A stretch of DNA of 39,640 bases, taken from contig JAMDDD010000029.1 in assembly GCA_023489275.1 (NCBI GenBank), positions 1-39,640 of the forward strand, written 5' to 3'. The position numbers and the translations under genes are program-made. This document shows positions 1,750-23,866 of the stretch, piece after piece; positions within the stretch are counted from its first letter, which is position 1; each line of letters starts with the position of its first letter. The notes below the pieces were generated by a model. The model worked only from the letters and a program-made list of their open reading frames with translations, had not been told where the DNA came from and ran no database searches. This DNA comes from Actinomycetota bacterium (lineage in GTDB: Bacteria > Actinomycetota > Thermoleophilia > BMS3ABIN01).

Positions 1750-3027
1750 TTAACTGCTCCAGGGACAGCGCTGCTCGCGGATGTGGCGCTCGAAATCCTC
1801 CCGGAAGTAACGGAGGGCGCTCCCCAGCGGCTCCGCGGCCCCAGGAGCCAGAGCGCAAAAAGTGTGCCCCGGCGCCAGCATCGCCGCCAGCGAGTCCAGG
1901 GTGTCCAGGTCTTCCATCCGGCCGGCGCCGGCCTCGATGCCGGCCAGCAGCTCCACGGCGTACTGAAGCCCTCCCCAGCAGGGCGTGCACCAGCCGCACG
2001 ACTCTCGCAAGAAAAACTGCTCCAGGTTAAGTGTCATCCCCACCGGACAGGAGCGATCGTCCAGGACGATGATCGTGCCTGTTCCCAGGCGGCTGCCCGC
2101 GGCTTCCACGGAGGCAAAGTCCATCTTTACATCCAGCTGCGCCGGGGTGAGAAACTCCGTCGAGGCGCCACCGGGGATGATCCCCCTCAGCCGGTAGCCT
2201 TCCTGCATGCCGCCGGCATGCTCCTCCACGAGCTCCCGCAGCGGTGTGCCCATCGGCAGTTCCCAGGTCCCGGGCCGGCGGACGCGGCCGCTGGCCCCGT
2301 AGATCTTGGTGCCGCCCTCAGCGGTGAGGCTGAGGCTGCGAAACCAGGCGGCGCCGTTGTTGACGATATGCGGCAGGTTGCAGACGGTCTCCACGTTGTT
2401 GACAACCGTGGGGTTGCCCCACAGGCCGGAAACCTGCGGGTAGGGAGGCTTGGCCCGGGGATTGGCCCGCCGGCCCTCAATGGCGTTCAGCATCCCTGTC
2501 TCCTCCCCGCTCATGTACCGGCCGCCGCTGATGTGAAGATGTATGTCAAGGCTGTAATCGGAGCCGAGGATGCCCTGCCCGAGGCAGCCGCTGTCATACG
2601 CCTCGGCGATCGCCTGCTGAAGCAGCCGGGCCGCCAGATGGTATTCCCGGCGGAGAAAAATGTAGGCAACGTCCGCCTGGATGGCGTAGGACTCCAGCGC
2701 CGTTCCCTCGATCAGCTGGTGCGGATCTCCCTCCATCAGGAGGCGGTCCTTGAAAGCGCCCGGCTCCATCTCATCCGCATTGACGGCCACGTACTTGGGC
2801 CCGGCGGCCTTTTCTCCCATCGGCACAAAACTCCATTTGAGGCCGGCGTCAAAGCCGGCGCCGCCCCGGCCCTTGAGGTTGGCGTCCTTGACGGCCTGCG
2901 TGACTTCCTCCGGCCTCATCTTCAGGACGGCTTCGCGCAGCGCCCGGTAACCGCCGGCCTGCCGGTACGCCTTGATGTCAGGCGGCCGGCGCCCCGGTTG
3001 AATGTTGGCTGTCAGTGGCGTTTCCAT
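1750..3027 (-). CDS. nuoF: NADH-quinone oxidoreductase subunit F
   Basis: 425 aa; LKGRGGAGFDAGLKWSF, NADEMEPGAFKDR, SGEETGMLNAIEG, ESCGWCTPCWGG 4Fe-4S motif. Confidence 0.97.
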   Translation of the reverse strand: METPLTANIQPGRRPPDIKAYRQAGGYRALREAVLKMRPEEVTQAVKDANLKGRGGAGFDAGLKWSFVPMGEKAAGPKYVAVNADEMEPGAFKDRLLMEGDPHQLIEGTALESYAIQADVAYIFLRREYHLAARLLQQAIAEAYDSGCLGQGILGSDYSLDIHLHISGGRYMSGEETGMLNAIEGRRANPRAKPPYPQVSGLWGNPTVVNNVETVCNLPHIVNNGAAWFRSLSLTAEGGTKIYGASGRVRRPGTWELPMGTPLRELVEEHAGGMQEGYRLRGIIPGGASTEFLTPAQLDVKMDFASVEAAGSRLGTGTIIVLDDRSCPVGMTLNLEQFFLRESCGWCTPCWGGLQYAVELLAGIEAGAGRMEDLDTLDSLAAMLAPGHTFCALAPGAAEPLGSALRYFREDFERHIREQRCPWSS

Positions 3028-22164: not shown

Positions 22165-22560
22165 ATGCGCCATACCGGTGACAGGAAAGAAGCTGCCTTG
22201 CTGGCCCTGGTGCTGGCGGCGATGGCGCTGGCTTTATCCGCCTGCGGGACGAGCTACGGCAACGGCGGAAGCTCAAGCACAGGCGGGGCCGCGAAGACCA
22301 CCGGCCATGCGGCCAGCGTATCGATGACGAATTATGCCTTTCATCCCGCCAATCTAACCGTCTCCAGAGGAACCACTGTGACCTGGTCCAACGGCACGAA
22401 CATCGTTCATACCGTGACGGCTGACAGCGGGGCGTTTGATTCGGGCAACGTGAATCCTGGAAAGTCTTTCAGTTACACGTTTGATCAGGCGGGCACATTT
22501 CCGTATCATTGCACCTATCATGTGGCACTGGGTATGCGCGGGACCGTCACGGTCAAATAA
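22165..22560 (+). CDS. Plastocyanin/amicyanin-like blue copper lipoprotein
   Basis: Lipobox LSACG; VSMTNYAFHPANLTVSRGTTVTWSNGTNIVHTV...YHCTYHVALGMRGTV type-1 Cu ligands. Confidence 0.9.
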   Translation: MRHTGDRKEAALLALVLAAMALALSACGTSYGNGGSSSTGGAAKTTGHAASVSMTNYAFHPANLTVSRGTTVTWSNGTNIVHTVTADSGAFDSGNVNPGKSFSYTFDQAGTFPYHCTYHVALGMRGTVTVK

Positions 22561-22578: not shown

Positions 22579-22607
22579 CGTCGGGGCGGCTGAAGGCCGC
22601 CCCGACG
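22579..22607. terminator. Strong 12-bp hairpin CGTCGGGGCGGC-TGAAG-GCCGCCCCGACG
   Basis: Perfect inverted repeat 19 nt after the cupredoxin stop; no clear T-tract on +. Confidence 0.5.
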
Positions 22608-22660: not shown

Positions 22661-23866
22661 GTGACAGAAAAAACTGTCAAAATATACACCACGCCCGGCT
22701 GACCTTTCTGCCGCCGTCTTAAGGCTCTCTTCCGTGAAAAGGGAATCGACTACGAAGAAATAGACGTGTCCAAGGACCTGATGGCCCTGGAGGAGATGCG
22801 GCGGCTGACGGGCCGGAATGCGGTGCCCCAGGTTTTCATCGGCGATGATTATATCGGTGGTTATGAGGATTTCCTCGTCCTGGACGCCAAAGGCGAGATT
22901 GACGCCAGGCTCGGCCGCAAACGAAAACCGGCGCCGGCGAAGGTGGAAATTCAGGATCTGCTGATTATCGGCGCCGGGCCCGCCGGCATGACCGCCGCTG
23001 TTTACGCCGCCCGCAAGCGATTAAGCACGGTTATTATATCTGATCAATTAGGGGGACAGCCGGCGCTGACAGCCACTATCGAGAATTACATGGGCTATCA
23101 GTTCATCACCGGGCCTGAGCTGATGGCAAAGTTCGAGGAACAAACCCGCCACTATCCTGGCGTGGCGCTGGCCGAGGGCGAAGAAGTCGTCCGCCTCGAG
23201 CTGGCCGGCCGGATGAAAAAAGCAATCACCGAGTCCGGCAAAATCTTCACGGGGCGGGCGGCGATCATCGCCTCCGGCAAACGCTCACGCACGCTCAACG
23301 TGCCCGGGGAGCACGAATACACCGGACGGGGAGTAAGTTACTGCGCCACTTGCGATGCGCCGCTGTACGCGGGCGAGAGCGTCCTCGTCGCCGGCGGCGG
23401 CAATTCCGCATTGGAGGCGGCGCTGGAGCTTGCCGCCCTCTGCCCCGCAGTCCACCTTGTATCGCTCTCAGAACCAACGGGGGATGAAATCCTGCTGGGA
23501 AAGGTCAGGGCAGAGACCCGCATTCTTAAGCATCTTATGTGGCGGTTGTCAGAGATTAAAGGGGACGGCAAGGAAGTGACGGCCGCCGGTATTACATCAG
23601 CTGATGGGGCCGGGCGGGAGGAGATACCGGTAAAAGCGGTCTTCGTTGAGATCGGCCTGCATCCCAATTCCGCTTTTGCCATTGATCTGGTCCGGCTCAA
23701 CCGCGCCGGCGAGATTGAGGTTGACAGTGGCTGCCGCACCGGTGTGCCCGGCATTTTTGCGGCGGGGGACGTTACCCAGGTACGCGACAAGCAGATCATC
23801 GTTGCCGCCGGCGAGGGAGCCAAGGCGGCGTTATCGGCTTATGAGTACCTGCTGTCGCAAAGGTAG
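22661..23866 (+). CDS. Glutaredoxin-thioredoxin reductase fusion; candidate selenoprotein with in-frame TGA at 22700-22702
   Basis: GTG at 22661: MTEKTVKIYTTPG-(TGA)-PFCRRLKALFREKGIDYEEIDVSKDLMALEEMRRLTGRNAVPQVFIGDDYIGGYEDF then TrxR (GAGPAGMTAAVYAARK, CATCDAPLYAG, GIFAAGDVTQV). TGA replaces the first Cys of the Grx CPFC site; the ORF track begins after it. Confidence 0.8.

Follow-up and report, generated by a model that had tools for sequence, protein, structure and literature searches.

The gene at 22661-23866 of the window (i.e., the whole stretch of 39,640 nucleotides of actinomycetotal DNA analysed here) is, as far as its sequence can tell, a real selenoprotein gene. It very probably encodes a glutaredoxin (Grx) with selenocysteine (Sec) at residue 14, in a UPFC motif, fused to a low-Mr flavoprotein of the AhpF/thioredoxin reductase (TrxR) type, its UGA at 22700 being decoded as Sec via a downstream hairpin and its product most likely acting as a self-contained NAD(P)H-dependent reductase. 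A Grx-TrxR selenoprotein had already been proposed in an earlier, sequence-only reading of this DNA, and that proposal now finds support in the TGA of the relatives, in a conserved RNA structure and in the selenium machinery of the genome. The features discussed below are collected in Table 1.

Table 1. Features of the fusion gene and its surroundings, in coordinates of the window.
Feature	Position	Strand	Remarks
Cupredoxin-like lipoprotein gene	22165..22560	+	directly upstream of the fusion; conserved neighbour in family f1
Grx-TrxR fusion selenoprotein gene	22661..23866	+	401 aa including Sec14, then TAG stop
Glutaredoxin domain, residues 6-65	22676..22855	+	Pfam PF00462; predicted Grx fold
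In-frame TGA, read as Sec14 of the UPFC motif (Grx nucleophile position)	22700..22702	+	shared by 15 genomes; Cys homologues have TGC/TGT
Resolving Cys17 of UPFC	22709..22711	+	TGC, invariant
SECIS hairpin	22726..22744	+	alignment columns 27-33 with 39-45; loop CGUGA 22733-22737; G22734 and U22735 invariant
TrxR/AhpF-type FAD-NAD(P)H domain, residues 99-386	22955..23818	+	Pfam PF07992; PDB AhpF and TrxR matches
CATC redox-active disulfide of the TrxR domain, Cys228 and Cys231	23342..23353	+	sequence

From the GTG at 22661 to the TAG at 23866 there is one open frame, whose sole in-frame stop is the TGA. As the sequence-only reading had stated, this stop falls at the catalytic Cys of the Grx motif, and the frame continues into a TrxR with an intact CATC site. 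The protein start quoted in that reading had the correct frame, from GTG 22661, but had dropped five residues (VTEKT): read through the TGA, the N-terminus is VTEKTVKIYTTPG-U-PFCRRLKALFREKGIDYEEIDVSKD..., beginning VTEKTVKIYTTPG-U-PFCRRLK..., and the start codon is ATG in a 94% identical sister gene versus GTG in the window. The Pfam Glutaredoxin match, which includes the UPxC motif, spans the TGA with 77.1 bits (gathering cut-off 22.9), and the flavoprotein part is matched by Pyr_redox_2. No NCBIfam model above its own cut-off covers the fusion. The thioredoxin reductase equivalog TIGR01292 scores 273.6 (curated cut-off 343.45), with the Pyr_redox_2 domain and the CATC site present, while the AhpF equivalog TIGR03140 reaches 313.8 (cut-off 502.9) and the Uxx-star Grx-like selenoprotein model NF041212 reaches 58.6 (cut-off 66). 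In an AlphaFold model based on 14 alignment rows (pTM 0.48), the Grx fold is clear and the domain arrangement is not usable.

Within family f1, to which the window belongs, the fusion carries TGA at the identical codon in 15 of 19 genomes (the window's and 14 others, the latter with 58-94% protein identity to it). Since the TGA is shared so widely, a misread TGC or TGT, which the sequence-only reading had named as a possible undoing, can be discarded. The fusion is absent from three f1 genomes (G008, G009 and G012), and in G011 it is visible from residue 22 on. One further copy, L023, very probably from the same assembly as G011/L105, keeps the TGA and the SECIS loop, but one extra nucleotide shortly behind the UGA (around 2985-3010) shifts its frame; in this low-coverage MAG the insertion may be either a sequencing error or a real lesion. 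Homologues starting only downstream of the Sec codon had also been named as a danger to the proposal; instead, the N-terminal strand is retained in them, as is the UPxC/CPxC motif. At the codon itself, the 15 f1 genomes have Sec and the other fusions of the class, from families f3 and f5 (46-49% identity), have Cys, encoded by TGC or TGT, even though nearly all f3 and f5 genomes carry selB. Grx and TrxR are encoded separately, by neighbouring genes, in Chloroflexota, Syntrophobacterales and three more families of Actinomycetota; the chloroflexotal matches were at first read as fusions, and inspection revealed separate genes. The split Grx has TGA (UPxC), with TrxR directly after, in L026, L028, L041, L043, L046, L050, L063 and L169-L171, and TGC in the others. 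Such split pairs, be they Sec or Cys, speak for a partnership of the two proteins. In a tree of the fused forms, a single change divides the Sec rows from the Cys rows; support for this split is weak (64/100) and two long rows are unreliable, so that the polarity is not readable from it. Given the split pairs with Sec or Cys, the fused Cys forms of f3 and f5 and the fused Sec forms of f1, Grx and TrxR are, to judge from these gene layouts, a conserved pair that has been fused within the window's class and whose choice between Sec and Cys differs by lineage.

This conservation also bears on two less favourable readings of the TGA. According to the first, translation would stop there, the Grx half would be vestigial and a plain TrxR would be made from GTG 22766 or from a start further on, which agrees with the abundance of split grx-trxR genes elsewhere and with the ORF listing of the window. 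There, only a 366-aa ORF from 22766, that is, the TrxR fragment, is given, just as the sequence-only reading had expected of automated gene calling. Nevertheless, stopping at the UGA would leave a 13-aa peptide and, because GTG 22766 lies inside the Grx domain, half a Grx fold; moreover, Grx residues are conserved on both sides of the UGA and the true split forms have their stop after a whole Grx, all of which makes this reading very unlikely. The second, a former Cys gene now broken by a nonsense mutation, a pseudogene or a sequencing error, could appeal to the SECIS copy of the window, the weakest of the set. It is extremely unlikely, being refuted by the conservation of the identical TGA across the family, in 15 genomes, and opposed by the integrity of every other active-site residue and by purifying selection on both domains: dN/dS against the 94% sister is about 0.2 (0.12-0.20 for Grx after the UGA and 0.20-0.23 for TrxR), a constraint that a broken or truncated Grx is not expected to keep.

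The hairpin at 22726-22744 is, from its pattern of conservation, the putative SECIS directing Sec insertion at UGA 22700. It occupies the stretch from 24 to 42 nt after the UGA, with a 7-bp stem and a 5-nt loop (CGUGA) that starts 30 nt after the UGA. In the ungapped alignment of 14 Sec rows, 93.9% of the cells are paired, three pairs show two-sided (compensatory) changes and every slid register is worse; RNAalifold recovers the same helix unprompted, and it is the strongest consensus hairpin of the 1064 25-nt windows along the gene alignment. None of 2000 synonymous-codon shuffles reaches the observed pairing or RNAalifold energy, and the same test gives no hairpin signal at this position in the Cys homologues. 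The aligned rows are related, hence not independent, and the shuffle tests therefore overstate significance, a concern eased in part by the Cys control and by the rank of the hairpin within the gene. In addition, the Arg codon of the loop is CGT in 14/14 Sec rows, whereas elsewhere in these genes CGT makes up 19 of 313 Arg codons. The sequence-only reading was thus right in placing a SECIS downstream of the TGA. The pairing it proposed, CCUUUC with GAAAAGG around GCC-GGC, was not upheld: it is conserved only in part (74% of cells pair, against 94%), and the element that has been kept is a different, more 3' hairpin.

The geometry of the family hairpin fits the published bSECIS model, with a loop of 3-9 nt, a G in the first two loop positions, a stem of 4-16 bp and 16-37 nt from UGA to loop, to which an energy criterion of MFE <= -7.5 kcal/mol is added (PMC13188914). 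In the window copy, the loop-closing pair 22732-22738 is a C.A mismatch. There, an alternative 4-bp register, UUCC/GGAA (22730-22733 with 22742-22745, around the 8-nt loop GUGAAAAG, GU first), agrees with the bSECIS geometry at a spacing of 31 nt and finds no support in covariation. The local hairpin energy of this copy is -2.8 to -4.2 kcal/mol, versus -5.2 to -13.7 in its sisters; over a stretch of 54 nt its MFE is -9.0, and over 63 nt it is -10, with only -4.2 for the local hairpin. Folding the window copy alone, a check that the sequence-only reading had put forward, gives no signal, the 63-nt fold being no better than shuffles (z = +1.1), and consequently the case for a SECIS rests on the relatives. 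The window copy is weaker than those of its sisters, which is the main soft spot for this copy in particular. Separate hairpins, about as far behind the UGA, are present in Sec-Grx genes of Chloroflexota, for example GUCAAGC-AGUU-GCUUGAC, and the split pairs L169-L171 likewise have hairpins after theirs.

Had selB or a tRNASec been missing, the proposal would have been in difficulty by its own account; both are present, and the genome (1.58 Mb in 45 contigs, 92% complete) holds the full set of selA, selB, selC and selD. On contig C21, selA (584 bits, cut-off 268), selB (376 bits, cut-off 242) and tRNASec (anticodon TCA) stand in a row, with tRNASec directly behind selB, and selD, on C24, carries its own in-frame TGA followed by the hairpin CUAAGUCC-GUC-GGACUUGG. 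A second match to the tRNASec model, on C16, turned out to be a tRNA-Ser TGA. Formate dehydrogenase is the usual Sec anchor, and no TGA was seen in that of the window's genome. A genome-wide reassignment of TGA to another amino acid, such as Trp, Gly or Cys, is a practically negligible possibility, for which no supporting point was found: TGA is an ordinary stop in the window, where it ends 7 of the 22 listed ORFs, the Sec system is complete, the aligned residue is Cys, and both selD and a TlpA-like CxxC motif contain an in-frame TGA as well, as Sec predicts.

As for the mechanism, SelB and tRNASec would decode UGA 22700 as Sec under the direction of the hairpin, and electrons would pass from NAD(P)H to the FAD of the TrxR domain, from there to the CATC disulfide (Cys228/231) and then to the Sec14-Cys17 selenenylsulfide, after which Sec14 would attack a target disulfide. 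Since the flavoprotein would reduce Sec14-Cys17 in the same chain, it would take the role that glutathione has in an ordinary Grx, and the fusion would be an AhpF-like self-reducing selenoglutaredoxin acting as a disulfide (or peroxide/selenide) reductase. We infer this route (NAD(P)H -> FAD -> CATC -> Sec14/Cys17 -> target) from the parts, the conserved gene neighbourhood and the fusion itself, which make it the most likely one. A standalone TrxR is encoded at C21:3096-4016, so the fusion is not the only TrxR of the cell, and neither a peroxiredoxin (Prx) nor any other obvious substrate gene adjoins the fusion. Might the selenoprotein be an AhpF proper, dedicated to a Prx instead of being a general disulfide reductase? 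By its C-terminal part the protein comes nearest to AhpF, both in the TIGR03140 score (314 bits) and among crystal structures; however, that score is below the curated AhpF cut-off (502.9), the double-Trx-fold N-terminus is missing, there is no adjacent Prx gene and the best AhpC-TSA-domain match in the genome is a TlpA-like lipoprotein, so that this dedicated role seems less likely than not.

The neighbourhood offers further material. Nearly every f1 member examined has the cupredoxin-like lipoprotein gene directly before the fusion. This hints at a connection with the envelope or with copper, even if the compartments of the two products would differ. Between both genes lies a perfect 11-bp inverted repeat, GTCGGGGCGGC-TGAAG-GCCGCCCCGAC (22580-22606), without a T run, a candidate terminator or regulatory hairpin. 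Elsewhere in the genome, a TlpA-like lipoprotein gene adjoins a small, 74-aa Grx-like gene (G000:C3:7390-8135), and the locus L140 (G000:C43:60816-62444) joins a TlpA/ResA-like domain with an in-frame TGA (GQUQGC) to a flavoprotein resembling type-III SQR. L140 is a candidate second fusion selenoprotein: 15 loci in 14 f1 genomes share its TGA, and its SECIS is strong (GGCGGGA-GGC-UCCCGCC), with a compensated pair in L152. It differs from the catalogued SQR_III selenoprotein, in which Sec lies elsewhere, in HxxU. Tentatively, and with more doubt than confidence, f1 might be seen as a family in which thioredoxin-fold domains bearing Sec have repeatedly been joined to an NAD(P)H/FAD reductase of their own (Grx-TrxR, TlpA/ResA-type with type-III SQR-like). 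The resulting selenoreductases would be self-sufficient and coupled to redox chemistry of respiration or of copper/sulfur, with the cupredoxin as one conceivable link, and not to glutathione/thioredoxin.

Several known systems share part of this architecture. In AhpF, the N-terminal redox domain is reduced by the TrxR-like domain of the same chain; the window protein, whose best PDB match is AhpF, likewise has a redox-active N-terminal thioredoxin-fold part and a TrxR-like FAD domain in one chain, but with one Grx domain in place of the double Trx fold, with Sec, and with a score below the AhpF model cut-off. Animal thioredoxin glutathione reductase (TGR) is also a selenoprotein in which Grx is fused to a TrxR, the latter of the high-Mr type and with Sec at the C-terminus, whereas the window protein has a low-Mr, CATC-type TrxR and Sec at residue 14 of the chain, in the Grx domain, and so falls outside the animal type; the fusion has an origin independent of animal TGR. 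In Clostridium pasteurianum, the Grx Cp9 is reduced by the TrxR-like flavoprotein Cp34, a comparable service rendered between separate, Cys-based proteins instead of within a fused, Sec-based one. Sec-Grx, as the sequence-only reading had stated, is an established family (UxxC, PF00462, e.g., WP_010943784.1), catalogued as the Grx domain alone (PMC13188914); it shares with the window protein the Sec at the Grx nucleophile in UPxC and the bacterial SECIS downstream, and lacks the fusion to its own flavin reductase. The AhpF N-terminal-domain homolog selenoprotein (TIGR02187, ABB15282.1) is catalogued as a Grx-like domain protein (PMC1794560, PMC13188914) and, with its Grx-like domain akin to a part of AhpF, also has Sec in UxxC; the Grx domain of the window protein fits single-domain Grx models, and the flavoprotein is fused to it. 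The 2026 catalogue of 119 prokaryotic selenoprotein families/subfamilies lists Grx, the AhpF-N-terminal homologue and a CoA-disulfide-reductase-like flavoprotein, and the Grx-TrxR fusion is absent from it (PMC13188914); a search of an open-access library returned no report of such a selenoprotein either, although subscription papers or unpublished annotation may hold one. Sec-Grx being already known, what is new is its fusion to TrxR, which adds to the bacterial selenoproteome a fused and, as inferred, self-reducing architecture that automated annotation truncates. Together with its relatives, it forms a natural series, with every combination of split or fused genes and Sec or Cys, in bacteria that may lack glutathione, in which the contributions of Sec and of fusion to Grx chemistry could be tested against each other.
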